Source: Nostoc sp. TCL240-02 (GTDB lineage: Bacteria; Cyanobacteriota; Cyanobacteriia; Cyanobacteriales; Nostocaceae). From it: a stretch of DNA of 64,000 nucleotides. The stretch spans positions 2,294,501 through 2,358,500 of the forward strand of contig NZ_CP040094.1 of assembly GCF_013343235.1 (NCBI RefSeq). Direction: 5' to 3'. The position numbers were made by a program, and so were the translations under genes. The notes beneath the pieces were generated by a model. It saw nothing but the letters and a program-made list of their open reading frames with translations. It searched no databases and was not told the origin of the DNA. Below, one piece after another: positions 36,217-53,234 of this stretch (its first letter is position 1; every line of letters starts with the position of its first letter).

Positions 36217-37125
36217 TTACACCACATCAGCCTGTGTAGTTTCCGAATCTGCACACTGTATCTGTTGTGGATTCTCTTGTGCCAAAATTGCTGTTACGTC
36301 TAAATTAGGTTTTGGTAGATACTTCATTTCCCAAACTTTGAGCAAAATTAAGTATTCGTAGAATGCCTGCAATGTACACCAAGCAAGTCCAGCATGTCCA
36401 TCTAAACATCCGCCTAACATAAAATACATATATAGAAAGCGTAACAACGGTCTACCAGGTAGGCGCAAAGACAAATCTTTCAAGGCACGGCGTTTTTCGA
36501 CTTCCGATTTACCAAAGAATAAATCTTGCCAGTTGACCTTTCCTTGTTCTAACTGATATAGCGTTTCTTGAGCTTCATCTGTAGAATAACGGTTATGCTT
36601 ATCAATCCAACGGCTCAAACCTTTGCTACAAGTGTAGTGGGGGTATGTTTCTTTTAAAAAGCTGGTTGCACCGTCACAAACTTCCCGCTCAGTATGACCA
36701 TAGTCTGTAAACCACACCTTTCCGTGCCGGAAGAGGCGCATTTGGTAACGGGGATACTGTGTGCTGTAGCGAATCCAACGATTCATGAACATGACACGTT
36801 CAGCCACATAGTAGCCGATGTAATCAAGATTCTGACTTACCTTTTCGCATTCCGCGAACAGTTCTGGTGTCATCCGCTCATCAGCTTCGAGAATATAAAC
36901 CCATTCGTGCTTGGGGGGGATAGACTCTAACATCCAGGTGCGTTGGCGGCCGTGGCTTTCAAAAGCGTGTTGGACAACACGGATGGGATAGCTACTGGCA
37001 ATTTCCACAGTGTGATCGCTACTGCATGAATCCACAACAATAATGTCATCTGATAGCATCGCTGATTCGATACAAGCAGCAATATCTAGTTCTTCGTTAT
37101 ATGTCAGTATGTAAATTGAGAACAT
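36217..37125 (-). CDS. Glycosyltransferase family 2, WaaE/KdtX-like
   Basis: A 302-residue GT2 enzyme: FSIYILTYNEELDIAACIESAMLSDDIIVVDSCSSDHTVEIA is the nucleotide-sugar binding start, and EADERMTPELF supplies the acidic metal-binding motif. The region MFMNRWIRYSTQYPRYQMRLFRHGKVWFTDYGHTERE resembles WaaE/KdtX-type transferases of lipopolysaccharide and polysaccharide synthesis. It is the last gene of the minus-strand hps-region series, about 125 bases beyond hpsJ, and probably modifies the same polysaccharide. The acceptor is unknown. Confidence 0.82.
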   Translation of the reverse strand: MFSIYILTYNEELDIAACIESAMLSDDIIVVDSCSSDHTVEIASSYPIRVVQHAFESHGRQRTWMLESIPPKHEWVYILEADERMTPELFAECEKVSQNLDYIGYYVAERVMFMNRWIRYSTQYPRYQMRLFRHGKVWFTDYGHTEREVCDGATSFLKETYPHYTCSKGLSRWIDKHNRYSTDEAQETLYQLEQGKVNWQDLFFGKSEVEKRRALKDLSLRLPGRPLLRFLYMYFMLGGCLDGHAGLAWCTLQAFYEYLILLKVWEMKYLPKPNLDVTAILAQENPQQIQCADSETTQADVV

Positions 37126-37250
37126 TACTACAAGTTTTATAGCGATTTTACTCAGTGATAACTGCCTTTTTATTTTTATTAGCTATTAGGCGCATGGCAG
37201 TATAAACTGAATAATTTTTGTACAAGTATTACTGCCATGCCAATAATGGA

Positions 37251-38093
37251 TTAGCGTGTAGTAGCTCTAGGTTTACCACCTTGTACAGCACCCATACCTT
37301 TTAAGCCTGTCCAGCCGATGATAATGTAACCAATGGATAACAACAAACTGCTAATCCCAATCCGCAGTCCAGACTTCCAAGCAGTATCTTTAGCTTGTTG
37401 TTCTGCTTCTTCTCTGCGTTGGCGAACTTGGCTCAATTGTTGAGTTCGTAGTGTCTGAATATCTGTTTGTTGTTCGATAGCCTTGTCAAGTGCTTGGGGA
37501 TCTGTTTTAGCCTTCTTGAGTAACTCTTTGATATTTGGGGGAATTTGAGAGCTTTCAAGCGCTTGCTTATATTTTTGATCATCTTTGAGGATTTCACTAA
37601 ACTGAGCTTTGGTTTGGGTTCGGAGTTGATCTAATTGGGCTTTTCCTTGCTCAGTATTCAGTTGTGCTTGCAATTGCGATAAACGAGTGTTGAGTTGAGC
37701 TTCTGCCTGATCTGCTTCTTGAGTGATTCGATTGAGTGTTTGAGTCTTAGCTTGATTGACGTTATTGAGGTGCAGGGGAAAAATCAGCAAGAACATCAAA
37801 CCTAAAATACTTGAGAGAATCACGGCGGGAAATCTTAAATCGATCCCTTGGGGGCGATCGCTTCCTGCATCAGCATTTTCAATCCAATAGCCAGTAAACA
37901 GCAGCCCCAGTCCTACTAGAGGAACAATTCCTCGATCGACTAGTGCTGTTGCCAAGTTGATTTGCCATACCCGATCAGTCGGTTGAAAGGGTAACAATAG
38001 AATCAAAAAGTCCACAAAAAAGGACAAAATGCAGATTATTCCAACTACCTTAACGGTGAGGGCAGTACTCACGGAAGTAAAACGGTTAACCAT
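37251..38093 (-). CDS. hpsJ: HpsJ family membrane protein
   Basis: A 280-residue protein with three N-terminal membrane segments (TVKVVGIICILSFFVDFLILLLPF, GIVPLVGLGLLFTGYWI, FPAVILSSILGLMFLLIFPL), a long coiled coil of about 120 residues (ITQEADQAEAQLNTRLSQLQAQLNTEQ ... QVRQRREEAEQQ) and a last membrane segment (LRIGISSLLLSIGYIIIGWTGL). This layout matches HpsJ of the hormogonium polysaccharide locus, required in N. punctiforme hps work but biochemically undefined. I use ATG 38093; a TTG-started extension of 35 residues lacks support. Confidence 0.78.
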   Translation of the reverse strand: MVNRFTSVSTALTVKVVGIICILSFFVDFLILLLPFQPTDRVWQINLATALVDRGIVPLVGLGLLFTGYWIENADAGSDRPQGIDLRFPAVILSSILGLMFLLIFPLHLNNVNQAKTQTLNRITQEADQAEAQLNTRLSQLQAQLNTEQGKAQLDQLRTQTKAQFSEILKDDQKYKQALESSQIPPNIKELLKKAKTDPQALDKAIEQQTDIQTLRTQQLSQVRQRREEAEQQAKDTAWKSGLRIGISSLLLSIGYIIIGWTGLKGMGAVQGGKPRATTR

Positions 38094-38457
38094 AGTTTTT
38101 CGAACTGGCGGTGAATACGAGTGATTTTCATATTTCAAGTTACTTGAATATTGTGCCCATGACCGTGACTGTTGTGTAGAAATACAAAGTAGATTCAATA
38201 TTGCTAAAAGCTATCTGTCTCTTGGTTTTCAACTAGGCCACAGTAACATTTGTTATGTACAGTGTCTTCAGGAATTTCTTGGTGTTTTAAAATATAAGTA
38301 TAAACAGTAACGTAGTAAAAGACTCATTAATTACCCGATTTCTCTTGTTTTAAGTTCTCAATCGCTTGCAACATAAGTATTTTGTAGGGTCGCACAGATA
38401 TGCGCCCCTAGTGGGTTGTGCATCCATATAAAAATTACTATATCTCCTTTATCTCCC

Positions 38458-39105
38458 TCATCCTTCCATCTCACCCACAAGGGTTTGTTCCCAAATCGGT
38501 AGATCCTCGGGTCGGTCAACATCAGCTAAAGGCGGCAAGTTCACGTATGATAAATGAAGTTCCTGGGCAATGTCTACCGTTTTCTGGAATACTTGAGTAG
38601 TTCCCCACTCAATGTTAACGAATAACTCCGGGATAGCTTGACGCAAACCAATTAAGTAATATCCACCATCGATCGCAGGCCCAAGTACGAGATCAAAGGT
38701 GTGTAGCTTTTCAAACGCTGTTGCTAAAATCTCGGCATTGACTCCAGGACAATCTGTGCCGATGATAATTACTTTTTCTGCACCAGATTGAAAAGCATCG
38801 AAAAGCGATTGCGCCATCCGTGAACCTAGATCCCCTTCGCCTTGAGACTGGTAAACCAAATCTAACCCCAGCCAGTCTTGCATGAGTTGCAAATCGCCAC
38901 CTGCAAATCGCACTTCCACAGATATGGCAATGGCTTTTTGCAATTCTTGAACGTGAAATATCGTATGTTCAGTCATTTCTCGTTGAAGATTAGCAGCACC
39001 AATATCTCCCAAAGCAGGTATCAATCGGGTTTTTGTCTTACCTGGTTCTGGATAGCGAGTAAAAATAATCAGGTGCTGTTTTGGGTTTGCTGGTAAATTC
39101 AGCAC
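38458..39105 (-). CDS. TIGR04282 (DUF2064) glycosyltransferase-like protein
   Basis: A 215-residue nucleotidyl/glycosyltransferase-fold protein with the conserved start HLIIFTRYPEPGKTKTRLIPALG, GEGDLGSRMAQSL, IIIGTDCPGVNAEIL, and LVLGPAIDGGYYLIGLRQ. The family is named for an arsenosugar biosynthesis gene in some annotations, but a general role in transferring sugars or nucleotides is more cautious. It is embedded between the pseudopilin gene and hpsJ on the same strand, which points to a job in polysaccharide synthesis here. Confidence 0.8.
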   Translation of the reverse strand: MLNLPANPKQHLIIFTRYPEPGKTKTRLIPALGDIGAANLQREMTEHTIFHVQELQKAIAISVEVRFAGGDLQLMQDWLGLDLVYQSQGEGDLGSRMAQSLFDAFQSGAEKVIIIGTDCPGVNAEILATAFEKLHTFDLVLGPAIDGGYYLIGLRQAIPELFVNIEWGTTQVFQKTVDIAQELHLSYVNLPPLADVDRPEDLPIWEQTLVGEMEG

Positions 39106-39137
39106 ACAATACCTTTTTTAATAAACTAAGAGATATT

Positions 39138-39707
39138 TTAATAGCAATACCTGTTGTTATCGGTTGTAGTATGCTCCTTTGCTGTTCGCATTGCCCCTAA
39201 AATCGTTGAAACAATAACACAACGCTTGACTTTACCACCAGACTTACTCGATAGCGTGATGCGTCCTAGATCGTTAGGGCTTTTAGCATTACCTCTGTAG
39301 TCAAATTGAACTTTACGTATGCTATTTGACAGTTGTAAGGTTGTCTCAGAATCTAAGCGTACATTGGAATCTATATTATTCCAGTTAGCCGCAGATGGAT
39401 TTACTGTAGCAGGATGAACTGCCCACTGAATAATACCGTTTTGCTCACGAAAGCTAGCTTGCCAAGTCAATTTTTCCTTACTGGCTTGGCTTCGGGCTTG
39501 ATGAATAGCAAGGTGAATTTCGTTTTGAGCAGTGTTGAGACGGCGAGTCTCCACAAAAGCTAGCCAGTTAGATATTCCCAACGTAGCTAATATACCAATT
39601 AATACAACAACTACTAACATTTCTAGTAGGGTAAAGCCACTACTGGAGTGTTTATTCAAAAGATTTTTTGCATTAACTAGAGACGGTAAATGCACCTGGA
39701 TATCCAT
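39138..39707 (-). CDS. Fourth pseudopilin of the hps region (GspH/FimT-like)
   Basis: A pseudopilin of about 189 residues with a long leader ending in a prepilin-peptidase site (SSG/FTLLEMLVVVVLIGILATLGISNWLAFVETRRL), in which the +5 Glu is kept. The following NEIHLAIHQARSQA helix and beta-rich C-terminus with two late Cys residues (KRCVIV...NRYCY) resemble GspH-type minor pseudopilins and HpsD at 42919. ATG 39707 is chosen; a TTG start at 39731 is possible. Either way the gene overlaps the 3' end of the upstream glycosyltransferase by 35-59 bases in another frame. Confidence 0.82.
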   Translation of the reverse strand: MDIQVHLPSLVNAKNLLNKHSSSGFTLLEMLVVVVLIGILATLGISNWLAFVETRRLNTAQNEIHLAIHQARSQASKEKLTWQASFREQNGIIQWAVHPATVNPSAANWNNIDSNVRLDSETTLQLSNSIRKVQFDYRGNAKSPNDLGRITLSSKSGGKVKRCVIVSTILGAMRTAKEHTTTDNNRYCY

Positions 39708-40749
39708 TTTTGTTTTCTGATCGCTTTTCAACTACCCAGTCGTTGAGCAATGTTTCAGTTTGTTGCCTTCTAACTTGACGCTGGTTAGTAATAATGTCTA
39801 GCAAGGTCGGCAGAATAAGGATTGTAAGAATTTTTAGTGAGAGTTTTAAGGTGAAATTTATGTTCTGAAATCTTGAAGGGTCATAAATAAAATACTTACA
39901 CAAAAATATCGCCGCCGCTAGACCTTTTTTTCTGTTAAATGGCTTTTGTAGAGCTTTGCAGACCAGGTATTTGTATAAATTTGCCAGACAAAGATTCCAA
40001 CTATCCCTTAGTGTAGTTCCTGTAGCGTCTCGTAGAGAAGGTCTTTCCTTACAGGCTCTCTCAAGCACTTGCAAACAGGATTTTTCCTGTCTAACAAGAT
40101 TGCAAGAAACTGAATTAGGAGTCATACGATATAAGATTTGTACAGATGGGACACATATAAAATTAAACTTAGAGGCTAATCGCAGCCACATATCCCAATC
40201 CTGAGCTGCACTTAGAGATTCGTCAAACCCACCTAATGCAATTAAAGATTTCCTACAAATTAAAGGATTGGAACCATTCTCTAAAAAATTATTTAGTAGC
40301 AAATTTTCATAAACATTTCCATTAGCTTTAACACGCTTACCTGAAAGTATAAATTCGCCATTTTCGTCAATATAATCAGTCCAACTATAAGCGACTTTGG
40401 CGGTAACATTTTCTTGCAAAGCCTTTAATTGAGATTTAAGTTTATCAGGTGTCCAAAGATCGTCTGCATCTAAGAAACTAACAAATTTTCCAACAGCATG
40501 GTGTAGCCCTCGGTTACGACTAACGTTTCCCCCGGCATTGGGATAGGAAAATACTTTTATTCGTGAGTCTGGAATTTTTGTAATAATTTCTAAAGTCGAG
40601 TCTTGGGAACCATCATTTATTACAATTAATTCTAGATTGTGAAAAGTTTGATTTAAAACAGATTCAATAGTTGCTTTAATAGTTTTTTCACTATTGTAAG
40701 CTGGGATAATTACACTAACTAATGTTTTATTTAAAGTTGACTTAATCAT
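39673..40749 (-). CDS. Glycosyltransferase family 2 of the hps region
   Basis: A GT2 enzyme of 358 residues: VSVIIPAYNSEKTIKATIESVLNQTFHNLELIVINDGSQDST and the DXD-type VSFLDADDLWTPDKL; AAQDWDMWLRLASKF is the catalytic-base region. It starts at ATG 40749, overlapping the stop of the previous glycosyltransferase (ATGATTAA). Near residue 238 the peptide KERPSLRDATG is encoded by gtagcgtctcgtagagaagg on the plus strand, a dispersed Nostoc repeat inserted in frame. Its place in the cluster corresponds to a glycosyltransferase of the hps locus, but I do not assign a letter. Confidence 0.85.
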   Translation of the reverse strand: MIKSTLNKTLVSVIIPAYNSEKTIKATIESVLNQTFHNLELIVINDGSQDSTLEIITKIPDSRIKVFSYPNAGGNVSRNRGLHHAVGKFVSFLDADDLWTPDKLKSQLKALQENVTAKVAYSWTDYIDENGEFILSGKRVKANGNVYENLLLNNFLENGSNPLICRKSLIALGGFDESLSAAQDWDMWLRLASKFNFICVPSVQILYRMTPNSVSCNLVRQEKSCLQVLERACKERPSLRDATGTTLRDSWNLCLANLYKYLVCKALQKPFNRKKGLAAAIFLCKYFIYDPSRFQNINFTLKLSLKILTILILPTLLDIITNQRQVRRQQTETLLNDWVVEKRSENKNGYPGAFTVSS

Positions 40750-41740
40750 ATTGTACACTTCTTGTTTTCAAGATCTTGTCTAACTTGCATCTTAAAGAAT
40801 AAAAGGGACTCATCATACTAGCTAAGTAAAAGTTAAGCTCAAAAAGAGCAATTAGATTAGTGTTAAATTGCCCTCTATACTGAATAAGGTGCTGTAATAC
40901 TCTACGTAAATTTCCTAAAATAGTTTTCACAAAAATTATTGGTTTTTGCCAATTTTTAGCATTTATCAAACGTAGCTGAAAAATACATAAGCCACAGCCA
41001 CGTGCCAAAGTCAGCAAATAATCTCTTTCCAGCCGCCAATGCGGTATTTGATGATAAGTATGCATGGTAGGGTTGTACCAAATTTGCCAGCCTGCATAAT
41101 GTATATAAAGCAATGGTTCATAATCATCACCCTGCACAAAAATACCAGGTAATTTGCCGCTTAAAGTCGGTTGTTGTGGTACATTTTCACACCATACTTG
41201 TTTCCTAACAACAAGCGCTGCCGCAGGAGGTAATCTTAAATTCTCTGCATCAAATAAATGCGGATTTGAACCATGTTCTCTGATTGCTAAAAAAGCTTGG
41301 ATTCTTTCAAAATTTTCTGGCAGCTTTACTTCAAAATCCCCATGAATCTGTCCGCTCCAAGCACCTGCTTGAGGATGCTCTAATCCAAAGGTATATGCTT
41401 GAGCTAACCAATCAGGAGCAGGTAAATTATCATCATCTAAAAACGCTATTAGCTTACCTCTTGCTTCACGTACTGCCCGCAATCGTGCAAAAGCGGCTCC
41501 CTGTTTTGGTTCTAAAAAATATCTTAACCGACAATTTATATCATATATTTTTTGGTAATTCTGGATTATTTCAGATGTGTTATCAGAACTATTGTTATCC
41601 ACAATAATAATTTCCCAGTTAAGTTTTTCTACTCCTATCTGGGTTAATAGCTTATCTAAAACTTTAGGTAAACGGGTTGCTCCGTTATAGGCAGGGATAG
41701 CTATGCTAATATCTAAACTTTCAGATGATAAGTTGACCAT
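40742..41740 (-). CDS. HpsE-like glycosyltransferase (second copy)
   Basis: A 332-residue GT2 enzyme very similar to the neighbouring HpsE: DISIAIPAYNGATRLPKVLDKLLTQ, IIIVDNNSSDNTSEII, LIAFLDDDNLPAPDWL, LPPAAALVVRKQVW and QIWYNPTMHTYHQIPHWRL occur in the same order as in 41762-42721. The two are 21 bases apart, consistent with tandem duplication and divergence. Metal binding through the DDDN motif is expected. It likely adds a sugar to the hormogonium polysaccharide. Confidence 0.85.
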   Translation of the reverse strand: MVNLSSESLDISIAIPAYNGATRLPKVLDKLLTQIGVEKLNWEIIIVDNNSSDNTSEIIQNYQKIYDINCRLRYFLEPKQGAAFARLRAVREARGKLIAFLDDDNLPAPDWLAQAYTFGLEHPQAGAWSGQIHGDFEVKLPENFERIQAFLAIREHGSNPHLFDAENLRLPPAAALVVRKQVWCENVPQQPTLSGKLPGIFVQGDDYEPLLYIHYAGWQIWYNPTMHTYHQIPHWRLERDYLLTLARGCGLCIFQLRLINAKNWQKPIIFVKTILGNLRRVLQHLIQYRGQFNTNLIALFELNFYLASMMSPFYSLRCKLDKILKTRSVQYD

Positions 41741-41761
41741 AATACTTAATGCTTTGATAAT

Positions 41762-42721
41762 TTATTTTTTAAAATACCCATTTTTCCAAAGATAAAAAGG
41801 GCTAACTAAGCTACTAAAAAAAAGTTCCATTTCGCAAGCAACTACCAAATCGTGTTTGAGTCTAGTTCGGTATTTGAGTAAGTGGAAAGCAATTTTACGT
41901 AAATCATTTATCATATAAGATACAAGAGCAATTGGTCTATATATCTGTTTGATATTAACCATTCTAGTTACATAACGGCTAAGTCCAATTCCTCTAAAAA
42001 ATGGAATTAAATAGTCTTTTTGTAAACGGGAACTAGGTATTCTATGAGAAATTTCCATTTCTGGGTTATACCAAATTTCCCATCCTGATTTTTGGATATA
42101 AGACAACATTTCTAAGTCTTCACTGGTAAGCATATTATCCTTAACTCTCCCAGTTAAAATCGCCTTATCTGGCACGCTTTCTAGCCACGCTTGTTTACGC
42201 ACTACAAGTCCGGCAGAGGGAGGTAGCAATTTTTTAGATGCTTGATATAATAACGGTAAATTACCTCGCTCTGTAATTGCTAAGAATGGGGCAATTCTCT
42301 GAAAGTTTTCTGGTGGTTCTACCTCCCAGTCAGGGTGAATTTGGCTGCCATAAGCTCCCGCTTTAGGGTATTTTTCACCAAAAGCATAAGCTGCACATAC
42401 CCAATTTGATACTGGATAGTTGTCATCATCTAGAAAACCTATTAATCTACCTTTAGCTTCTGCAACTGCCCTTTTTCGGGCATAGGCTGCCCCCTGTTGT
42501 GCTTCAAAGCAATACTTCAAAGGGTAAGAACATTGCCAATTCTGTTGATAGGTTTGAACAACTTTAGCTGTGTTATCAGTGCTGTTGTTGTCTACAACTA
42601 TAATTTCCCAAGTTAAATTTTCGGTGTGAAGTTGGTTTTGTAGCCGTTCTAGTAGTTCTGGTAAACGACTTTCACCGTTATAAGTTGGGATCGCTATAGT
42701 AATATCAAGGTTTTCAGTCAT
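41762..42721 (-). CDS. hpsE: Hormogonium polysaccharide glycosyltransferase HpsE
   Basis: A 319-residue GT2 enzyme. DITIAIPTYNGESRLPELLERL and IIVVDNNSTDNTAKVV bind the nucleotide sugar; LIGFLDDDNYPVSNWV carries the DXD-type metal site; LPPSAGLVVRKQAWL and MLTSEDLEMLSYIQKSGWEIWYNPEM form the acceptor side. The overall form matches HpsE of the hps locus of N. punctiforme. A 197-base spacer with a 10-bp hairpin separates it from hpsD, so it may have its own promoter. Confidence 0.83.
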   Translation of the reverse strand: MTENLDITIAIPTYNGESRLPELLERLQNQLHTENLTWEIIVVDNNSTDNTAKVVQTYQQNWQCSYPLKYCFEAQQGAAYARKRAVAEAKGRLIGFLDDDNYPVSNWVCAAYAFGEKYPKAGAYGSQIHPDWEVEPPENFQRIAPFLAITERGNLPLLYQASKKLLPPSAGLVVRKQAWLESVPDKAILTGRVKDNMLTSEDLEMLSYIQKSGWEIWYNPEMEISHRIPSSRLQKDYLIPFFRGIGLSRYVTRMVNIKQIYRPIALVSYMINDLRKIAFHLLKYRTRLKHDLVVACEMELFFSSLVSPFYLWKNGYFKK

Positions 42722-42823
42722 TTGACAAAATTTACATTTTGATTTGATTAAGACACTTTTTATTTTATATATTGAACCAATAACTAGTTTATTGCTGGCT
42801 CTTAAATAAATCTATCGAACATT

Positions 42824-42868
42824 AAAACTGCACCTGATATTTTAATTTTGCTATCAATGTGCAGTTTT
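42824..42868 (-). other. Perfect 10-bp inverted repeat in the hpsD-hpsE spacer
   Basis: aaaactgcac and gtgcagtttt are exact reverse complements with a 25-base AT-rich loop. On the minus strand the repeat follows hpsD and precedes hpsE, so it could attenuate or end the upstream transcript. Confidence 0.55.
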
Positions 42869-42918
42869 ATATACAGTATTCTTACCTAACTTCAAATGAA
42901 GATTCCTGCATAAGCTAC

Positions 42919-43623
42919 TTAACTGCATTTATCATCTTGTGCTGTGAGCATTGAGCCTAAGAGAGTTTTCACAATGACGCATCGCTTGACGCTACTAGGC
43001 AATGTAGAATTTGTAGAGCTTGGTACTGCTACCACTATTTTTAACCCAGGTGCTTCTGTACCTGCTGCTACTGTTCCAAAGTTATTTGGTAGAGTCAAAG
43101 CTCCCATGTAGTCAAAGGTAATTTTTGCTGATGCACTTAAAGGGTAGGATACAGGAGAATTAGTAGTAGTACTAGCAATGTTTTGACCAGCAAGATTTCC
43201 ACCTAGCAGAAATTTATTAGAGCTAACTCCTATATCCGTCCCTAAAGATTTCCATGTGCTGATTCCAATATCGGTACGATAAATCGCAACCTCTACATTT
43301 TGGGTTGTGCTATTTTTCTGAAAACTGACACTGTAGCTAAGTTTTTTGTTTTTAGCTTCGCGCTGTGCTTCTCGTAATGCAGCTAAAACAGCGTCATTAG
43401 CCTTATTCACTTGCTGCCGATTCACAAAGGCAAGCCAACCAGGAGCTGCGATCGCTGATAAAATTCCGATCATCACCATCACTACGATTAATTCCAGCAA
43501 GCTAAAGCCAGCATTTTGTTGTGTGTATCCAGAGGCGTAGTGCAGCCTGTTAACTAAACATGGCTGTTTGCTTTTTGCATTGCTGCGGGTTAGTTGCAAT
43601 AATTTAAAACTTAACTTTCCCAT
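42919..43623 (-). CDS. hpsD: Hormogonium polysaccharide secretion pseudopilin HpsD
   Basis: A 234-residue pseudopilin. After a ~38-residue polar leader comes the cleavage site AG/FSLLELIVVMVMIGILSAIAAPGWLAFVNRQQV with the conserved Glu at +5. A helix (NDAVLAALREAQREAKNKKLSYSVSF) and a beta-rich domain follow, ending VKRCVIVKTLLGSMLTAQDDKCS with two Cys that may pair. It has the GspH-like form and sits third in the hpsB-C-D series. Its C-terminus resembles that of the pseudopilin at 39138-39707. Confidence 0.75.
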   Translation of the reverse strand: MGKLSFKLLQLTRSNAKSKQPCLVNRLHYASGYTQQNAGFSLLELIVVMVMIGILSAIAAPGWLAFVNRQQVNKANDAVLAALREAQREAKNKKLSYSVSFQKNSTTQNVEVAIYRTDIGISTWKSLGTDIGVSSNKFLLGGNLAGQNIASTTTNSPVSYPLSASAKITFDYMGALTLPNNFGTVAAGTEAPGLKIVVAVPSSTNSTLPSSVKRCVIVKTLLGSMLTAQDDKCS

Positions 43624-43661
43624 AATTAGCTGCCATTGATTAATGCTTTGAATTTCAGTAT

Positions 43662-44702
43662 TTACTTGGTAAATAAGTATCCGCGTCCTTGTACTCGTAT
43701 GCTTGCAGTTGGAAAATAAGGTTTGTTACTGGGTTGGTAATTAAGGTTATTGCTTTGTAAGCGTGCGAGTGCATTACCTCGTAAAAATACTTGCGCTGTT
43801 GTATTAACTTTATCAACACATGCATAAAAGCTAGTCATTTTACCCGTATTACGAGTATTGAAAGTAGCTGTATCTGGTGATACTTTTGACCATGTAATGG
43901 GAGGAGTAGTGGAGTCAGCAGGACATGTTACCGGTAGTGCTGCTGGCACATCGTCATTTTTGGTTTGATCAATAAAGTCAACAAGTACTGTGGGATCGGC
44001 AGTGTAATCTGCTGTGGCTTTTGTCCAAGCATTCATCTTTTGTGTTATTGTGCCGATTCCATCAAGCTTAAATAAAGCAAAACCTGGGTTAGGGCAATAA
44101 CTTGTACTGACATACTTTCCACTATATCCAGTACAAGTTACGGTGCTAGAACTGGTACTGACACCATCCTTAATTTGCCATCGGGCGATACGAGCGGCAT
44201 TAGACCAAGTAGAACTAGAAGTAGCGTCTTTAATTAAATAGTAGGCAACTAATGAGTAAACAAAAGTATCATCTTGTCCACTGGCTGTAGTAATTGCTTG
44301 ACTAACTAATTCTCGCTTCCAAAAGACAAGAACAGGAACTCTATCTGTTGCACTTGGACTAGGTAGTTGATTCCCAGTTGTACTTGCACTTGGGCAAGTA
44401 GTAGTATCAGCAGTACCGCTTAGACAAGCAATTCCAGTAGCATCATAAATATAGATTGCCTGTTGTAAATCACGGGCAATGTAATCTAGTGCAGATTGAA
44501 TTTCTTGCTCAGAATTTGCCTTGGCTTGTTCCTTTCGGTCTGTATCCAGAATATTAACCATGAATCCTAGCAACGGCGTGATGATTAGGAAGGCTAGGAT
44601 CATGCCTACCAACAATTCAATTAGGGTAAAACCATAAACTTGCTGAGTGTCCTTGGAACGCTTCAGCTGTTTACTGAGCAAAAATTTTAGTGTCCTTATC
44701 AT
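43662..44702 (-). CDS. hpsC: Hormogonium polysaccharide secretion pseudopilin HpsC
   Basis: A 346-residue PilW-like pseudopilin. The leader ends VYG/FTLIELLVGMILAFLIITPLLGFMVNIL, with Glu +5. DRKEQAKANSEQEIQSALDYIARDLQQAIYIYD is the typical PilW helix after the membrane segment. The long C-terminal domain is Thr/Ser-rich with paired cysteines (ACLSGTADTTTCPS, CTGYSGKYVSTSYCPN). It lies 71 bases downstream of hpsB and 38 bases upstream of hpsD. Confidence 0.82.
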   Translation of the reverse strand: MIRTLKFLLSKQLKRSKDTQQVYGFTLIELLVGMILAFLIITPLLGFMVNILDTDRKEQAKANSEQEIQSALDYIARDLQQAIYIYDATGIACLSGTADTTTCPSASTTGNQLPSPSATDRVPVLVFWKRELVSQAITTASGQDDTFVYSLVAYYLIKDATSSSTWSNAARIARWQIKDGVSTSSSTVTCTGYSGKYVSTSYCPNPGFALFKLDGIGTITQKMNAWTKATADYTADPTVLVDFIDQTKNDDVPAALPVTCPADSTTPPITWSKVSPDTATFNTRNTGKMTSFYACVDKVNTTAQVFLRGNALARLQSNNLNYQPSNKPYFPTASIRVQGRGYLFTK

Positions 44703-44773: not shown

Positions 44774-45472
44774 TTATTGACAAGTTTTATTTGTCGCAAT
44801 ACCCAGCCGCTTACATAAAGCCTGAAATGAAGTCGTACTGTTGGCAATGTCGGTTGTCATTTCAATTAATGGTGCTTTACGGCTACCTAATCCACCAGTG
44901 AAAGGTGTTTGTGTGTTTTTAGTATCAAGAGTGCTGGCTGTTAAGGGAAAGTCAGCATCTGCTCGATAAACCCTAATTCCCAGACGATAGCCATCGTTCA
45001 CCCCAGCACTTTGAACAACAATTCGACTAGCCTGGATATAAAATAAATTGCTAGTATTGCTACTACAGTCTGGATTAGAAATACTACCGTTCTTAAAGCA
45101 ATATAAAGTAGTTGCATCTGTAGGAACGGGCATATTTGTAGTGTTAATTAAATAGTCACCTGGGCTACCTGTTATAGGTGGTGTACCCGCTACATCTGAA
45201 ATGCGTCTAGGCGCGGCTGATGTAGGAGCAGCAATTGTAATGACTGTATTTGGCGCTGTAATAGCTCCAATTCTGATGCCATCAATGAATGTTTTTGCCG
45301 CTTGAGTGGCCAGTTCCACCCGTCGAGACTGAACGCGGGTTGCTGTTGCCAGAACTATAACAGGTGCGATCGCTGTTAGTAAAATAGCAACTACGAGTAA
45401 TGCTACCAGCGACTCAATAATCGTGAAACCAGACTCCCCAGAAGGGTGGATTTGTTGTTTGTGCTTAATCAT
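44774..45472 (-). CDS. hpsB: Hormogonium polysaccharide secretion pseudopilin HpsB
   Basis: A 232-residue pseudopilin with a short leader and cleavage site ESG/FTIIESLVALLVVAILLTAIAPVIVLATATRVQSRRVELATQAAKTFIDGIR, Glu at +5. The rest is a Thr/Ser/Pro-rich domain with cysteines near 138 and 146 and again at the end (LCKRLGIATNKTCQ). It is the first gene after hpsA, 30 bases away, and is surely co-transcribed with it. Confidence 0.83.
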   Translation of the reverse strand: MIKHKQQIHPSGESGFTIIESLVALLVVAILLTAIAPVIVLATATRVQSRRVELATQAAKTFIDGIRIGAITAPNTVITIAAPTSAAPRRISDVAGTPPITGSPGDYLINTTNMPVPTDATTLYCFKNGSISNPDCSSNTSNLFYIQASRIVVQSAGVNDGYRLGIRVYRADADFPLTASTLDTKNTQTPFTGGLGSRKAPLIEMTTDIANSTTSFQALCKRLGIATNKTCQ

Positions 45473-45502: not shown

Positions 45503-48500
45503 TTAGTTGCAAGGACGTTGGTCTGCGTCGATTGCATAAGTGTTGTCGGTTTTTTTAGCACATAACAAAGTTGCTACCCAGGAGTCATCTCGACCAACTT
45601 CCCGGAAGTACTCGTCTGGCAAATCATCTGGGGTTCTCACCAATTTTTGAGCAAACAAGTCAGGCGACTGAGAAAGCAACGCTACATCATAACCCCACTG
45701 CCGTTTAGGAGCTATATAGAAAGGAGCTTGACCGTCGTTACCAACGATACGATATGATCCATTTAAAATTGCCGCAAATGGTGCAGTAGCAAAAGCACTG
45801 CGCTTGAACTGGATAAAAGAGCCGCTAATCCTCGCTGGGGTAGCATTTGCTGTACTATCGTCTGAGTTCCAGTTCTCTATAAACCTTACAAAGTTGTGTA
45901 AACCACCATTATCTTCATTGGAGCGTGCGGGTGTATCTCCAGCTGCTGCGGCTAAGTTGAAGGTGGTTGATGTAGCCACTTGTAGCCAATTGTTGTGATT
46001 CGGGGTTTTACCACTTCCAGGGCCTATTTTTGTAGTATCGGGTGAGCCAGGACTCCCAAAAGGTACATTGATTTGTAAGACAGGCGACAAGCGGGGTTGA
46101 TTTTGCTGAGTAGGGGCACTACTGTCTATGATTAAAGATTTGTCGGCTGAATTGTTTGAATCATTTGTCTTGAACCATAGAGCAGTAGTGGATTTTCGAG
46201 GGAAGGTACTCCCTGAGTAGGGAAACTCTGATACCTTAACATTTGAATCAATTCCCAGGGGTATAGGCTGAGAGCTATCAATCATCAAGTTGCCAACAGG
46301 AGTAGAAGCACTATTACGTTTAAACGCAACTCGACGGGGGTAGGTCGATATTGAACTTGCTGCTGCTACGGCCGTTGTACCTGCATTTAAAGTTGAACTT
46401 AATAAACTACCATCAGTTGCAATTTGCCAAGAGTACTTATTATTGAATGAGTTTATTGGGTCATAGTTAACATACCAGTCTGTAGGTGCTGTACACGCCG
46501 AGACAGGTAATTTCGGACAAACTTCCATTAAGTACTCGTTGAAATTTCCCCGTCGCTGAATTGGTGTGACAAAGTTATTAAGGTAAGAACTAGAGATATT
46601 TGGAATACCGCTGCTGTTATACCAGCTAGCATTGGTGACGTAGGTGTTAATAAAAAAGCCATTATTTTTAAAGTTGGTAATAGAGACAGTATCCCCTAAG
46701 TTATTGTTCAAGTCATAGTCTCCCTGATTACGGAAACCCAACTGGAAGCTATTAGAAAGTAGGGTTATGGCATCCGCTATGACGCTTGCAGGTCGCCATT
46801 CATCTCCAGTAGGACAAGATAGCCTGGGGTCACCTGAGCGACAAGCAAAGTTAGGACTGCGCTTATTTGCAGGGCGACTATAGAAATTACTCCAGTCATC
46901 TTTTAGTAAGTTACCTGGGTCTGTTACAAGATCACCGAACTCTTCTTGAGTGTGAAGATTAAAGTCACCTTTAACATATACAGGCAGATTAGAAGCCAAA
47001 ATTAGCCCTTTTTCTGTGTCTCTATAAGAGTTTGTACGCCAGATTTTTCCTCCATTGACAAACATAATGGCGTTAGGACGGCGAGTTGGGTCAAGTTTAT
47101 AGTCAACAGGACTTTCTGTCGTTTGGTTTACTCCCGTTGCACTCGCATCTAAAAGCGCATCATCACGGGTAGCATAGATAATACCGCTATTTGGTAATAA
47201 GTATTCTGTTGCTGTTGCTACACCACCACTAATAGGTTTTCCTCGCAGCTTGTCAATATCTAATACTGTGGCGCGAATTTCTAGGGGTTGACGATCTTCA
47301 AGAGGAAGATTGTAATCTATATCTGAGGGTATGACAGCGCCCCCATCTGCGTTTGTAAATGTTTCTAATACAGACGCAGTTGCTGTGTTATCTGCATGAA
47401 TTGCCTTAACCTGCCTGGGGTCGAGAAAGGCAGTTTCCATGATTGCACCGTGAGGAATAAGAAGAGGATTTTGAACGGTAATAGTGCCGTCTAAAATTTG
47501 TATGGCGCAAAGTGCAGATTCAACAGCAGACCTTTGTGAGATAGTACGGTCAGCCGCATTTTTTGCCAAAGCATTTTTCAATGGCTCATTTACCCAACGC
47601 CCATTGGGATACTTCAATTGGGCTTGATAACTAAGCACTGCCGCATAAGTTGTTTCACCGCTAGCAGTGTCAGGAGGATTGTAGACTATACCGTTATTGG
47701 AATTGCCATTATTTGTACCATTGTTGGGGGAATTTATAGGGGATACATCAGCTAAACCTGTTTTGTTCCTGGCTGTAGTGCTATTCGTTGGATCATAGTA
47801 GCTACTAACACAAGCAATAGGCGCTGGAGTCACCTGATTATAACTGGCAACGTTGTAGTGATAAACCGCTGTTGCCCGCATCCGCAGGTAGGGCGTATTT
47901 GCATCGTCGGGGAATACGATATTTGCATCCTTGGTACTACCAGCAGTTGCAGCTGTGGAAACAACTGGCATCATATCTGACCAGATTTTGTCCGTAGCAG
48001 TTTTGGCTGCTGTATATGTAGCACTACTTTCAGTGGTGGTATAGCCACTAGGTAAATAAATTCCACCACCAGTAACTACTCGTAAGCCACCTACAGGTTC
48101 TTGTGGATTTGTTGGGACTTTAGCTGCTGCTAATTCCCAGTCCCCATCTCTGTCTGTAGCTCCCAAATCAGCCAATTGCTCTACGCGGCTGCGACGAGTG
48201 CGAGTTCCCCCTCCAGTGTTGTCCCACGTAATACCTGTAATATTTTGAGTGTCTTGTGGATTTGGCCCAACAAAGCTTGTTCCATTCCACCAGAGTTGAG
48301 GTAAATTATTACCAACTGAAATGCGATCGCCTAAAAATGCCTCTTTACCATCTGGGTCTTTTTGTAGAGTAGTTGGTTCAGTTGCAGCAGGTAAAAGCTT
48401 TGTATCACCACTTGTTGTATTCAGCGTCAGCTTAGTATAGTTAGTACCTGTCGTTTTACCATCGCTAGGGTCAGTTGGATAAATCCAAACATCTGGCGGA

Positions 48501-49996
48501 CGTAGCGTATCACCACTACCATTTAGTGGGCTGGTCGTTTCGTAAGCGCCTAAAACCTTGCTTAAGTCACTATTATCAGCAAAAGGAACCTCTGTAAAAG
48601 GTACGCGACGCGTGCGCTTTTTAAAGTAAAGCTCTAGCTGTTGTTGGCGGAACTTATCTTGTTCAGCTGCGGTGAAATCTGCTGCTGTTAAGCCACGCTT
48701 CTGATATTCCTGGTTAATACCATCACTAACCTCTTTGGGATCAGTACTAGCATTATTAGTCATCTGTGCAGAAACTAAGCGATTGATACGCTTTACATAA
48801 GCTAGGCTGTTATAAGCTATAACATTCGGACCCTGGGTAACTGATTTTTGAAAATCACTCTCAGTTGGAGCGGTGCTTTTTCCCTGGAATAAATGTACTT
48901 TGGTACTGGGAGATATATCACCAGTATCTATAAATCCGCCAGAGGCCGTATTACCACCAACAACTATTTTGGCATTATCGGCTGTATAGTAACATGATGC
49001 ATTACTGCTAACTTGATATAGCGTAATTCCTGATCCTCCGCCAGTCAGGAAATTACTATTGGTAAAAATCCGCCCATTCAGTTTGAAGGCAGGACCTGGA
49101 GTGAGGTTGATATCATCCTCATAAATAACTGCGTTGTTAACCAGAAGAAGTTGCACTCGGTCTTGTTCATACTCTAGGGCAGAGAAACCTTTATTGCCTT
49201 TATATTGCTCATAATTAGTAGTATCAGCAGGTATACCAGTAATAGGAATAGTTGCGGTGTAAGCAAAGAAGCTTTTTTTCAGTTTGCCATTGATATTAAA
49301 CCAGCCAGTATTGCCTACTAAGCTGGCACTTGTTGAAGTATCTCCACAATCTCCACTTACACCACCAGCCGCCATTGGTGGAGTTCTCGCCTCTAAGGAG
49401 TTTCTTTTGCGGGTATATGCACCTTCATTTATTGGTGGATTTTTAAAATAAATCCCATAAAGTGTGTAGCTATCAAATTTACCGTTGTTATTCGTATCTA
49501 CGGGATATTGCCACGCCGTTTTTAGAAATTTTGTTTCATCTGTTTCATTTTTATCTAAAGCCAGTTTCAGTTGAGTTTCATCGCCAAAGGTATATTCATC
49601 AATATTATTTGCCAAAGTCCCGTAAAGTGCATCATCTGTGGGTGTAGCTCGTGGTAGTCTTCCATCTTGAAATAGCTTGTTTAATTTAGCTCTAGCGCGA
49701 TCAATTGCCGGGGTTGCAGCATTGAGAGTAGCCTCATTCACGCGGGTATTACTGGCGTTTTTAGAGCGCTCAAATGACCTAAATAAAATCGCAGTAGTCA
49801 GTAACACAACTACTAGTGTTACCATTACTACCGTTGGCAAAACAAACCCAGCATTTCCAATCTCACGTCTTCTATTGGTGGTGAAAATAGTTCTTATTAG
49901 CCAAATAATTTGCTTTTTTATTGTAGATAAAAACTGTTTAGTAAGTTTTTTTAAAGAAAATCTTACTGCCTTGAATAACTTGCGTCTTACAGACAT
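45503..49996 (-). CDS. hpsA: Hormogonium polysaccharide biosynthesis protein HpsA
   Basis: A 1497-residue protein. A basic ~50-residue N-terminus (RRKLFKAVRFSLKKLTKQ ... TTNRRRE) precedes a prepilin-like junction NAG/FVLPTVVMVTLVVVLLTTAILFRSFERSKNASN, so the protein is probably membrane-inserted and perhaps processed like a pseudopilin. The remaining 1400 residues are an exported-looking, Asn/Thr/Ser/Pro-rich region including YVKGDFNLH, ASVIADAITLLSNSF and few cysteines. Length and N-terminus match HpsA, a conserved protein of hormogonium polysaccharide secretion. A good ribosome site (gaggaag) lies 5 bases before the ATG. No enzyme motif was recognised. Confidence 0.85.
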   Translation of the reverse strand: MSVRRKLFKAVRFSLKKLTKQFLSTIKKQIIWLIRTIFTTNRRREIGNAGFVLPTVVMVTLVVVLLTTAILFRSFERSKNASNTRVNEATLNAATPAIDRARAKLNKLFQDGRLPRATPTDDALYGTLANNIDEYTFGDETQLKLALDKNETDETKFLKTAWQYPVDTNNNGKFDSYTLYGIYFKNPPINEGAYTRKRNSLEARTPPMAAGGVSGDCGDTSTSASLVGNTGWFNINGKLKKSFFAYTATIPITGIPADTTNYEQYKGNKGFSALEYEQDRVQLLLVNNAVIYEDDINLTPGPAFKLNGRIFTNSNFLTGGGSGITLYQVSSNASCYYTADNAKIVVGGNTASGGFIDTGDISPSTKVHLFQGKSTAPTESDFQKSVTQGPNVIAYNSLAYVKRINRLVSAQMTNNASTDPKEVSDGINQEYQKRGLTAADFTAAEQDKFRQQQLELYFKKRTRRVPFTEVPFADNSDLSKVLGAYETTSPLNGSGDTLRPPDVWIYPTDPSDGKTTGTNYTKLTLNTTSGDTKLLPAATEPTTLQKDPDGKEAFLGDRISVGNNLPQLWWNGTSFVGPNPQDTQNITGITWDNTGGGTRTRRSRVEQLADLGATDRDGDWELAAAKVPTNPQEPVGGLRVVTGGGIYLPSGYTTTESSATYTAAKTATDKIWSDMMPVVSTAATAGSTKDANIVFPDDANTPYLRMRATAVYHYNVASYNQVTPAPIACVSSYYDPTNSTTARNKTGLADVSPINSPNNGTNNGNSNNGIVYNPPDTASGETTYAAVLSYQAQLKYPNGRWVNEPLKNALAKNAADRTISQRSAVESALCAIQILDGTITVQNPLLIPHGAIMETAFLDPRQVKAIHADNTATASVLETFTNADGGAVIPSDIDYNLPLEDRQPLEIRATVLDIDKLRGKPISGGVATATEYLLPNSGIIYATRDDALLDASATGVNQTTESPVDYKLDPTRRPNAIMFVNGGKIWRTNSYRDTEKGLILASNLPVYVKGDFNLHTQEEFGDLVTDPGNLLKDDWSNFYSRPANKRSPNFACRSGDPRLSCPTGDEWRPASVIADAITLLSNSFQLGFRNQGDYDLNNNLGDTVSITNFKNNGFFINTYVTNASWYNSSGIPNISSSYLNNFVTPIQRRGNFNEYLMEVCPKLPVSACTAPTDWYVNYDPINSFNNKYSWQIATDGSLLSSTLNAGTTAVAAASSISTYPRRVAFKRNSASTPVGNLMIDSSQPIPLGIDSNVKVSEFPYSGSTFPRKSTTALWFKTNDSNNSADKSLIIDSSAPTQQNQPRLSPVLQINVPFGSPGSPDTTKIGPGSGKTPNHNNWLQVATSTTFNLAAAAGDTPARSNEDNGGLHNFVRFIENWNSDDSTANATPARISGSFIQFKRSAFATAPFAAILNGSYRIVGNDGQAPFYIAPKRQWGYDVALLSQSPDLFAQKLVRTPDDLPDEYFREVGRDDSWVATLLCAKKTDNTYAIDADQRPCN

Positions 49997-50509: not shown

Positions 50510-50519
50510 TTCCCTTGTA
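50510..50519. repeat. Left 10-bp target duplication of MITE copy 1
   Basis: ttcccttgta, repeated exactly at 50687-50696. Joining the flanks restores the ccc...ttgta...ggg palindrome seen intact at 2293-2315. Confidence 0.8.
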
Positions 50520-50686
50520 GCTACGGTGTACACACAAGTCTTGAAATCCCACCTAAAACTTGCTTTCGTTGCCCTAACCTTAAAATTAGCGGGATAAATG
50601 GAGTTTCTAGTTGCCCAAAATTTGGGTATTTACGGGGCTAAAAGGGTTGAAACCTTTGCAGACTATACTTGTGTGTACACCGTAGC
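50520..50686 (+). mobile_element. MITE-like element, copy 1
   Basis: A non-coding 167-bp element (165-bp core 50521-50685) with a perfect terminal inverted repeat: ctacggtgtacacacaagt at the left and its exact complement at the right. It is flanked by a 10-bp duplication, which suggests mobilisation by an IS4-type transposase. It differs from copy 2 (53460-53624) at only three positions. It lies between hpsA and the PIG-L gene. Confidence 0.85.
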
Positions 50687-50696
50687 TTCCCTTGTA
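50687..50696. repeat. Right 10-bp target duplication of MITE copy 1
   Basis: An exact copy of ttcccttgta at 50510-50519, directly outside the right terminal repeat. Confidence 0.8.
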
Positions 50697-50799
50697 GGGA
50701 AGGGGAGTAAGATTCAAAGCCTCTCTTCTAAAAAAAGAGAGGTCAAAGTGTATTGCTTCCATTCGAGAAGCGCTATATATTTACTTTATAAATAGGCTC

Positions 50800-51717
50800 T
50801 TATTGATTTGACAACAAAGAAGAAGGTTTGAAAAAAATTTCATACGGTACGAAAAATCGCCGTAGGAAACCAGGCTTTAGTACAGCATAAGTTTCAGCAT
50901 CAATAGGTAGACACTGAGAGCGGTAGGCTCCAAGCGCCTCTATCTTCTTATTTTGAACAGAATGAATAGATATACGGTAAGCAGATGCTAATTCATCTAG
51001 TTTTAGGTCACGGAAGAGTAAAGATTTCCAGAGAATCCAAATCGGGTACTGTAAAATGTCAACCTCAATTTCAGAGTATTGAATCGCCGCTAGCAGTAAT
51101 TCATAAGTTACTTCGTGGTCTTTAATACGGTCTTGGCGATGAGTCACATAAACCTCCCCAGGCTGGAAGGATTTCAGGAGTTGAGCAAGTTGTTCAATTG
51201 TTTGTTGGCGCTTGCTTGCATCTAGATATTGAAGTTGACTATCTGGTTTGTCGAGAAAGTAAATTTGTTCAGAGTCGATGCCTAAGATACTTAAAGCTGA
51301 AAGCGCTTCTTGCTTACGAATTGAAACCATTTCACCAGATTGAAACTTGGGATGTTTGCCATGAGAAGCTGCTCCATCTGTGACAAAAACAATCTGGACT
51401 GGCACATTCTGTTCCCGCTTGAGTTTAATTAAACCACCGCATCCCAAAACTTCATCATCCTGGTGCGGTGCAATTACCATTGCAGATTTCTGATTAACTT
51501 TCATCGGCTTACTACCAATATGCAATAGCCAAAGAAATTGCAACATGCTCATGAATTCTGGCAATGTATGATTGTATAGTCGCCAAATCTTGTTTCGTAC
51601 TCGATGAAGAATATGTTTGACATTCAGCATTCTTTTTAATCCTATAGTCCAATACGGTTCACTTAGCGCCAAAAACCCTTTATCTGCGTAGATTGGGAGA
51701 GGAACGAAACCCAACAT
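50800..51717 (-). CDS. PIG-L family deacetylase
   Basis: A 305-residue LmbE/PIG-L zinc deacetylase: the metal-binding signature is VIAPHQDDEVLGCGG, and the second motif is THRQDRIKDHEVTYEL. Such enzymes remove acetyl groups from N-acetylglucosamine-type sugars, so here it probably modifies the hps polysaccharide or a lipid-linked sugar. The first ~29 residues (MLGFVPLPIYADKG) are read partly from a gttgggttt-type dispersed repeat; MLNVKHILHRVRNK at 51630 may be the real start. It lies upstream of hpsA on the same strand, between two MITE copies. Confidence 0.85.
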   Translation of the reverse strand: MLGFVPLPIYADKGFLALSEPYWTIGLKRMLNVKHILHRVRNKIWRLYNHTLPEFMSMLQFLWLLHIGSKPMKVNQKSAMVIAPHQDDEVLGCGGLIKLKREQNVPVQIVFVTDGAASHGKHPKFQSGEMVSIRKQEALSALSILGIDSEQIYFLDKPDSQLQYLDASKRQQTIEQLAQLLKSFQPGEVYVTHRQDRIKDHEVTYELLLAAIQYSEIEVDILQYPIWILWKSLLFRDLKLDELASAYRISIHSVQNKKIEALGAYRSQCLPIDAETYAVLKPGFLRRFFVPYEIFFKPSSLLSNQ

Positions 51718-51881
51718 TTTCGGGAGTTTGTTGGGTTTTACTACGTTCTACCCAACCTACGATTATTCTTAACCCAAGCGTATTGTCTTATAATCCTTCT
51801 CTGAATCTCGGTTTCATCCATTGAATTACCTCTATATATTTATTTGTGAGTTATACAGATTTCCCTACCCAGAAAGAGAAA

Positions 51882-53234
51882 CTACCGTTGCAATCTGCTG
51901 TATATAGTTGCTAAATCCGCTGCCTGCATATTTACTGTGCGAACAGGTTTAATACCTTGGCGCAATTCCCACAGTAAATTAGTATCTGTTGCTAATCGCT
52001 CAAGAGCTTGAGTCCAAGCTTTAGTATCGTTAGCAGTCACTAACCAACCATCAATGCCATGCCTAACAAGTTCAGCAATACCCCCCAAGTTAGAGCCGAT
52101 GACAGGTATAGATAGGGAGTGGGCTTCTAATACAACCAAAGGCCCAGTTTCCAGGCATTGGGAAGGTACAGCTAGTAAGTCATAGTTAGCTAGAGTCTGG
52201 CGAAGTTCTTCTCTTGTTAGTTCTTTATTCACACAAATCCGAGGATCGTTTGCTATCAAATTAAAGATTTTTTGGCGATATCGTTCATCCTGCGTTATTC
52301 CATAAATGACCAACTCAATCTTGACTTGCTCAGGTAAATCTTTAACTGCCTGTACTAAAATATCGATACCCTTATATATATCCCAGCGTCCTAAAAAAAC
52401 TACTTTTAAAGGGTCTGATTGCTGTCTTGTCTGTGGTAATTTTTTTTGTGCAGTATAAGAAATTCCATGTCGAGAGAGAAGAAGTTTTTCTTCAGGTATG
52501 CCGTTGATGAGTAGAGCTTTATAAAGCCAATCACACACTGTCACAATGCGGTCAGCATACTTTGCCATTTTTAGCAAACTTTTTTTGCGGGCAGCAACAT
52601 AACCAGGCACGACAAAAGGACGGACAAACCTTCCCAGATTACCATCGTCTACTGAGGCTGGAAGATATGCACTGGTGGGCAAAGGTAAGCGACTGAGGAG
52701 ATCCAAGGGAAAATGGCTCAAACTTTTGACTATTGCAGCAGGTAGCTTTTTGCTCAAAGTATCAGCACACTGAGAACACCGCACCACATCAATTTTGCCA
52801 TCACAAACTTTTTGTCCATTGAACATCAAAGTAATTCGCTGGCATAAGGGTACGGCATAGTGTAATGTCAGCACTGTTGCCATGCCTAATTCTTTAGCTA
52901 ATCGCAAATGAGGCAACCCACAATATACTTCCCAGTGGTGCTGATGATATATGTCTGCTTTTTGGTTAGTTAACCAATTAGCGAAATATTCAAATTTCCC
53001 ATGCGGAAATTGCCCATGATTTGGTTGTGTTTTGGGCGCGGGAAATACAGGATATCGATAAACTTCTACGTCGTTATATTTATAAGTCTCTTCTGTTTGG
53101 GAACCTAACTTGGCCGCTGCTATCTGGATGTCAATATCATGCGATCGCAATTCTGGCAGTAACTCGTTGAGGTTTACTTGAATACCACCACATTTATCTG
53201 GAAAATAACGCGCAAGAGCTTGAATTACTTTCAT
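51882..53234 (-). CDS. Glycosyltransferase family 4
   Basis: A 450-residue GT-B enzyme of family 4. The N-terminal half starts KVIQALARYFPDKCGGIQVNLNELLPEL and contains IYHQHHWEVYCGLPHLRLAKEL. A Cys cluster CDGKIDVVRCSQCADTL near 155 is common in a subset of GT4 enzymes. The nucleotide-binding half has VVFLGRWDIYKGIDILVQAV near 285 and the EX7E-type region VLEAHSLSIPVIGSNLGGIAELVRHGIDGWLV near 375. I use ATG 53234 rather than the GTG four codons upstream. It is about 165 bases upstream of the PIG-L gene, same strand, and likely acts in the same polysaccharide pathway. Confidence 0.86.
   Translation of the reverse strand: MKVIQALARYFPDKCGGIQVNLNELLPELRSHDIDIQIAAAKLGSQTEETYKYNDVEVYRYPVFPAPKTQPNHGQFPHGKFEYFANWLTNQKADIYHQHHWEVYCGLPHLRLAKELGMATVLTLHYAVPLCQRITLMFNGQKVCDGKIDVVRCSQCADTLSKKLPAAIVKSLSHFPLDLLSRLPLPTSAYLPASVDDGNLGRFVRPFVVPGYVAARKKSLLKMAKYADRIVTVCDWLYKALLINGIPEEKLLLSRHGISYTAQKKLPQTRQQSDPLKVVFLGRWDIYKGIDILVQAVKDLPEQVKIELVIYGITQDERYRQKIFNLIANDPRICVNKELTREELRQTLANYDLLAVPSQCLETGPLVVLEAHSLSIPVIGSNLGGIAELVRHGIDGWLVTANDTKAWTQALERLATDTNLLWELRQGIKPVRTVNMQAADLATIYSRLQR

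Follow-up and report, generated by a model that had tools for sequence, protein, structure and literature searches.

Exchange of hpsA-D alleles and a proposed tip-pilin role for HpsA in the hps locus of Nostoc sp. TCL240-02

Filamentous cyanobacteria glide by means of the hps genes, and we describe here a complete and recognisable set of them in Nostoc sp. TCL240-02, lying within a 64,000-nucleotide stretch of contig NZ_CP040094.1 (positions 2,294,501 to 2,358,500; this whole stretch is called the window, and coordinates are counted from its first nucleotide). The hpsA-K locus of Nostoc punctiforme was reportedly the work of Risser and Meeks in 2013. It corresponds to Npun_F0066-F0078 (PMC10581220, Table 4), hpsB, C, D and H being given as pseudopilins, hpsE, F, G, I and K as glycosyltransferases, and hpsA and hpsJ as genes of unknown function (PMC10581220, PMC4284469). 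A 2025 review already counts minor pilin genes as part of the hps cluster, without settling how the polysaccharide is exported (PMC12288463). Two other systems resemble parts of the locus: ComZ/PilA2 of Thermus thermophilus, in which a giant pilin is paired with a small pseudopilin-like pilin from an adjacent gene (PMC6561018), and the FimU-PilV-PilW-PilX minor pilins of Myxococcus xanthus, which with PilY1 form a priming and tip complex and whose PilX is without Glu5 (PMC7541494).

The kinds of genes and their order are as in N. punctiforme: hpsA, three pilin genes, three glycosyltransferase genes, the pilin gene hpsH, then I, J and K. The window differs in having two HpsE-family glycosyltransferases at the E and F positions and a GT4 glycosyltransferase and a PIG-L deacetylase upstream, although this comparison is by description and the two loci may not in fact differ there; its hpsA-D is moreover one of several divergent alleles. 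The kind of locus is already known, and what may be new is the tip-pilin reading of HpsA together with the swapping of hpsA-D, neither of which we found in the open-licence literature. We consider it moderately probable that hpsA-K is built of two blocks, one in which HpsA is a giant tip pilin with an outward part that differs from strain to strain, the products of hpsA-D and hpsH are minor pilins of a type IV pilus and hpsA-D are swapped alleles, and a second that makes polysaccharide.

Thirteen open reading frames (ORFs) follow one another on the minus strand from 36217 to 53246; an earlier note made on this DNA had proposed a thirteen-gene hps locus ending at 53234, and the last gene, with a GTG start, ends 12 bases past that point. 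Judged by sequence, 11 of the 13 are an hpsA-K locus in the order A-B-C-D-E-F-G-H-I-J-K published for N. punctiforme (PMC10581220, PMC4284469). Five hps families of NCBIfam are matched above their curated cut-offs, which bears out the HpsA, HpsB, HpsC and HpsJ calls of the note: hpsA (45503..49996, 1497 residues; NF038301, 1879 bits, cut-off 400), hpsB (44774..45472; NF038303, 257.6 bits, cut-off 150), hpsC (43662..44702; NF038304, 426.2 bits, cut-off 200), hpsE (41762..42721; NF038302, 524.9 bits, cut-off 300) and hpsJ (37251..38198; NF050014, 373.5 bits, cut-off 260). The HpsE family is matched a second time by the adjacent gene (40742..41740, 472.2 bits), so that the hpsF position in this pair (40742-42721) holds an HpsE-family protein. 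Since no family named for HpsD, F, G, H, I or K was among the matches, those names follow the N. punctiforme order: hpsD (42919..43623), the glycosyltransferases of type GT2 at the hpsG (39673..40758; PF10111, 171.6 bits) and hpsK (36217..37125; PF00535, 49.8 bits) positions, and, because the window shares that order, the TIGR04282/DUF2064 gene at the hpsI position (38458..39105; 222.5 bits, cut-off 134) and the pilin that the note had left as an unnamed fourth at the hpsH position (39138..39731). Pfam and NCBIfam likewise agree with its TIGR04282 protein, its sugar deacetylase (PIG-L) and its five glycosyltransferases, four of GT2 type, including both HpsE-family genes, and one GT4. We do not accept the “arsenosugar” name attached to TIGR04282 as the function of the hpsI product. 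The TTG start listed for hpsH overlaps hpsG by 59 bases (39673-39731), and the real start is probably a downstream ATG.

Relatives were examined in 80 named loci (L numbers below) fetched around HpsA, some of which end early at contig ends. The exact A-to-K order is present in 33 of them and, together with the five families, supports the hps identity of the locus; if gaps are permitted, 61 keep six or more genes in alphabetical order, and hpsA-B-C are adjacent and in order in 78. An HpsA labelled Nostoc punctiforme (P0044, strain unstated) among the relatives listed is 59% identical to that of the window. On one side the locus is flanked by metH and on the other by DUF502, nusB and ftsY (Pfam/NCBIfam), DUF502 being present in 23/80 and MetH in 16/80 of the named loci. 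L120 has three additional pilin-like ORFs at 4813-6951, resembling B, D and C at 30-42%, immediately upstream of hpsA.

Allele exchange, like the gene content and order of the locus and the motif and conservation of HpsA, is counted here among the observations. Against the locus of Desmonostoc muscorum (L045), BLAST identity is 56, 56, 73 and 78% for HpsA to HpsD and 90-99% for HpsE to HpsK, beside 97% for MetH, 91% for GT4 and 90% for PIG-L; over aligned codons the values are 63, 62, 78 and 80% for HpsA-D and 85% for PIG-L. Nucleotide identity in 250-bp bins, profiled against three loci (L044, L045 and L047), steps within 42750..43250 from 77% (bin 43000-43250) on the swapped hpsA-D side to 94-96% (bin 42750-43000) on the conserved hpsE-K side. 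Synonymous divergence (dS), computed against five picked loci, is relative to L045 1.08 for hpsA, 0.55 for hpsB, 0.61 for hpsC and 0.26 for hpsD, compared with 0.10-0.16 for hpsE, F, G, I, J and K, 0.23 for hpsH, 0.29 for metH and 0.04 for a piece of the DUF502 gene. It might be suggested instead that hpsA-D, with no exchange, have evolved fast where they stand through positive or relaxed selection, as surface proteins often evolve fast and nonsynonymous divergence (dN) is raised as well. Fast protein evolution alone, however, leaves dS unraised, whereas here dS is also up, with hpsA at several times any value outside hpsA-D, so for hpsA-C divergent alleles have replaced each other. hpsD is less clear-cut, its dN being moderately up and its dS not above that of metH.

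Tree conflict points the same way. The 29 loci used for the trees come from 31 picked out of the 80 and the window; two, L078 and L085, lacked genes and were lost. In the core tree (HpsE+I+J+K) the window groups with L044, L045 and L047 at 100% support, and HpsE alone and I+J+K each retain this clade, which is rejected by HpsA (approximately unbiased (AU) test, p 4e-92) and by HpsB+C (AU p 1e-51); in the reverse test, two clades of the HpsA tree are likewise rejected by the core data (p 8e-93 and 6e-5). This strong conflict, with HpsE and I+J+K concordant, and the identity step between hpsD and hpsE both stand against evolution in place, which we regard as extremely improbable. The HpsA tree sets the window among Komarekiella and Nodularia loci, among others, and the HpsB+C tree sets it with L034, L038 and L049, so hpsA can evidently move apart from hpsB and hpsC. 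Five HpsA allele groups, which we drew ourselves from the HpsA tree, imply 11 allele changes when mapped onto the core tree, against a minimum of 4, a count presented without a shuffled-label control. Across locus pairs, which are not independent of one another, the identities of HpsA, B and C covary (r 0.70 for HpsB and 0.78 for HpsC with HpsA) and HpsA with HpsE reaches just 0.31, HpsD being intermediate (r 0.46 with HpsA, 0.52 with HpsE). On these comparisons hpsA-C evolve largely independently of hpsE-K. L117, which carries the same genus code as the window genome, has a far more divergent hpsA-B-C-H between MetH (96%) and hpsI/hpsJ; identity is 31% for HpsA, 90% for HpsI and 91% for HpsJ, and its HpsE-like glycosyltransferases are on the opposite strand.

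The four genes to which the note had assigned prepilin-peptidase sites do carry them: HpsB, C, D and H each have a prepilin site with Glu5, and N_methyl (cut-off 21.2 bits) is matched at 23.8 bits by HpsB, 27.9 by HpsD and 29.7 by HpsH, HpsC scoring 17.7 bits as a protein and 22.9 in a genome scan. Their likely places in a minor pilin set can be suggested from further matches. The best non-Hps match of HpsB is PilV (TIGR02523, E 1.9e-6, below cut-off); HpsH is GspH-like (PF12019, 27.8 bits); and HpsD belongs to the same family as HpsH (profile match E 1.2e-40). For HpsC, two weak matches far below cut-off (NF007848, E 2.1e-4; TIGR02599, E 8.7e-7), which we take to be of the PilW/GspJ kind, point together with elimination to a PilW/GspJ role. 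With HpsB taken as PilV, HpsH as GspH and HpsD as akin to HpsH, the GspK/PilX place falls by elimination to HpsA. Some of these matches also recall the Verru_Chthon cassette, which consists of a large protein (protein A) and pilin-like proteins: HpsC matches protein C (TIGR02599, 28.5 bits) and HpsD and HpsH match protein D (TIGR02596, 28.9 and 31.4 bits), far below the cut-offs. HpsA itself gave no Verru_Chthon match at E up to 10 (HMMER filters on), and we rejected it as a member of that cassette.

HpsA, the first and largest protein of the locus, has a prepilin-like N-terminus of its own, a feature absent from the earlier note. In the window the site reads NAG followed by FVLPTVVMVTLVVVLLTT, or in a longer reading NAG-FVLPTVVMVTLVVVLLTTAILFRSFER. 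The motif G/F[VIL]LP, the slash marking the site, is found in 110 of 112 HpsA ORFs (the window is counted twice, as itself and as L001; the 111 from loci comprise 105 different sequences), the remaining two having G/FIIP and reading G-FIIPT, and Thr stands at +5 in 107 of the 110. The Gly and Phe are invariant in alignments of 16 and of 22 rows; among blocks of 50 residues, conservation is highest at 51-100 (0.89, 22 rows). The least conserved part of HpsA, 1151-1300, falls within the stretch 1104-1312 that is absent from two Dolichospermum proteins; these HpsAs, of L109 and L110, are naturally short at ~1,150 residues. As PilX and GspK, too, are described as without Glu5 (PMC7541494), the HpsA motif would be a prepilin layout of the PilX/GspK type. 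Among the relatives listed, two source annotations of HpsA say PilX and two say PulG.

Several results weigh against HpsA as a pilin, and they can alternatively be taken to mean that it is simply a periplasmic or surface protein anchored in the membrane, which acts in polysaccharide assembly and whose motif is a plain transmembrane anchor. The N_methyl and PilX_N profiles do not match HpsA, and although its Thr at +5 suits a fifth set member without Glu5, hhalign of its N-terminal profile against HpsB, C, D and H gave 4-42%, compared with under 1% for the HpsJ control and 94.7-100% for the four pilins among themselves. The literature still gives HpsA no function (PMC4284469) or calls it a hypothetical membrane protein (PMC6495340). 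In other searches, no relevant Pfam domain was found in HpsA, even when E was relaxed to 1 or 10. Against sequences of the PDB, the A3 profile gave a best E of 0.4, to an unrelated entry, and with the A2 profile there was no match up to E 10; a model of whole HpsA (predicted local distance difference test (pLDDT) score 49.5; best Foldseek E 1.4) was uninformative. Nevertheless, we think a plain membrane protein quite unlikely: Gly-Phe precedes a conserved hydrophobic helix in all 112 ORFs, HpsA heads a pilin operon in which A-B-C is conserved almost throughout the named loci, its identities track those of HpsB and HpsC, and pilins are among the top fold rows. For the N-terminal model these are rows 1, 2, 3 and 6 of the VIA list, with ComZ at the top, a result that lends weak fold support (the second fold job began from 105 distinct fragments, 88 after thinning, of which 59 and the window were used).

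ComZ was also missed by a pilin predictor (PMC6561018). A further alternative is that HpsA is a ComZ-like DNA receptor for competence and not a slime adhesin; this we judge very unlikely. Synechocystis slr2018, considered as a candidate relative of HpsA, was not retained; the proteins encoded by pilA11 and slr2018 are described as being without clear homologs (PMC5924778). Compared with the M. xanthus minor pilin clusters, the proposed cap is here giant, and the PilY1 model (PF05567) was unmatched in the window's own genome but silent in all controls as well, so that absence of a PilY1-like protein, HpsA included, is not established. The HpsA model matched the Deinobacterium chartae control genome below cut-off and gave no match in the Thermus composti control. 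D. chartae is presumably kin to Deinococcus and Thermus, the group of ComZ, and a remote HpsA relative there is possible on that ground.

The earlier note had taken the pseudopilins to mark a polysaccharide secretion system, and while the hps identity stands, the secretion mechanism is not evident from the sequence. In such a scheme HpsB, C, D and H with HpsA would form a dedicated, type II secretion-like pseudopilus pushing hormogonium polysaccharide out; the NCBIfam names do say “secretion pseudopilin”, the pilins share the locus with glycosyltransferases, and the polysaccharide is abolished in pilB or pilQ mutants (PMC12288463). Yet few parts for a second filament were found in the genome. 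N_methyl gave five matches at E<=0.001, four of them HpsB, HpsC, HpsD and HpsH and the fifth a PilA/GspG-like pilin (C1:2214958), although N_methyl may miss other pilins, as it misses HpsA; there was one Peptidase_A24 prepilin peptidase and one PilQ-type ORF, both outside the window, the latter below the TIGR02515 cut-off, in a search that covered neither further secretin models nor ATPases.

Across the class, HpsA-family matches (E<=1e-3) occur in 226/290 genomes, 183 of them above cut-off. In 24 genomes hand-picked from the 226, mostly small or in few contigs and with HpsA not always over cut-off, HpsC was matched at E<=1e-3 in all 24 (7 above cut-off) and HpsE above cut-off in 3, leaving 21/24 with HpsA and HpsC matches but without HpsE over cut-off, a figure that is no rate because the genomes were hand-picked. 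At L112, L113 and L115, hpsA, B, C and another pilin gene stand without E-K across 18-19 kb, apart from weak GT2 matches at L112 (F, 41%) and L115 (G, 31%); L111 has A and B, with C just beyond the fetched stretch, and a weak G match. L116, with A alone, runs counter to this pattern. L119 (A, B, C, D, H) was set aside as a pilin set without glycosyltransferases, two HpsE over cut-off lying ~4-6 kb beyond the stretch (genome G017). A dedicated pseudopilus does not readily fit pilin sets lacking HpsE; a Wza-type exporter is, moreover, now also proposed for the hormogonium polysaccharide (PMC12288463, PMC12188702), and allele exchange is not an obvious need of a secretion part. We therefore consider the pseudopilus unlikely, and, on the pilus-gene counts, the HpsE-less genomes and the separate evolution of hpsA-C, minor pilins of the type IV pilus fit better.

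How might the two proposed blocks work? The first, hpsA-D acting with hpsH, would supply the type IV pilus of the cell with its minor pilins, HpsD/H being in the GspH/FimU place, HpsB in that of GspI/PilV, HpsC in that of GspJ/PilW and HpsA as a GspK/PilX-like cap. Prepilin peptidase would cut the HpsA leader after Gly50, the N-terminal helix would dock onto those of HpsB, C and D, and the extracellular part of ~1,400 residues would be displayed at the pilus tip, as proposed for Thermus ComZ. There it may grip a ligand, most likely secreted hormogonium polysaccharide, so that retraction would pull the filament, and the second block (hpsE-G, I and K with hpsJ) would produce that polysaccharide. 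Transcription agrees with the split, as hpsA-D require sigJ and, to a smaller degree, sigF, and hpsE-G show only moderate dependence on any single sigma factor (PMC6495340). The first block may diversify by in-place allele exchange while the second changes little because the tip meets the slime of other strains, phages or DNA.

We speculate further, and more tentatively, that HpsA represents a novel family of giant tip pilins with a wide distribution among cyanobacteria, that hpsA-D is an exchanged recognition cassette and that the “secretion pseudopilins” are ordinary type IV minor pilins. If this were true, cassette swapping in place, with the slime-making genes kept, would enable filaments to recognise slime of their own or of a neighbour, to evade pilus phages or to select DNA. 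If HpsA is a tip pilin, a single deletion series can test slime secretion against a motility pilus for the hps pilins, and the exchanged alleles, tip complexes swapped by nature between operons that are nearly identical elsewhere, are the material needed for finding the pilus-tip ligand.

Upstream of hpsA lie the two remaining genes of the run, encoding the PIG-L deacetylase (50800..51717, minus strand; PF02585, 98 bits) and the GT4 glycosyltransferase (51882..53246, minus strand; PF00534, 95.3 bits). A PIG-L relative occurs in 4/80 named loci (L032, L034, L045 and L066), each with GT4, and a GT4 match in 17/80, 13 of these at 63-92% identity, so both genes are accessory and not core hps. The pair is flanked by two nearly identical elements of 166-169 bases in the same orientation that resemble miniature inverted-repeat transposable elements (MITEs), one lying between PIG-L and hpsA (50519..50687), whose 21-nt terminal inverted repeats are perfect, and the other between GT4 and metH (53460..53625); a 16-base arm of the element occurs 32 times in the genome, and its reversed control 0 times. 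Recombination between the copies could delete GT4 and PIG-L. Scans of the window with Rfam and for tRNAs gave no match, and 5' of hpsA three promoter-like sites were found against 3.2 expected, hence we make no claim for them. L047 has neither GT4 nor PIG-L and one MITE arm upstream of hpsA, and L044 has GT4 without PIG-L and one arm.

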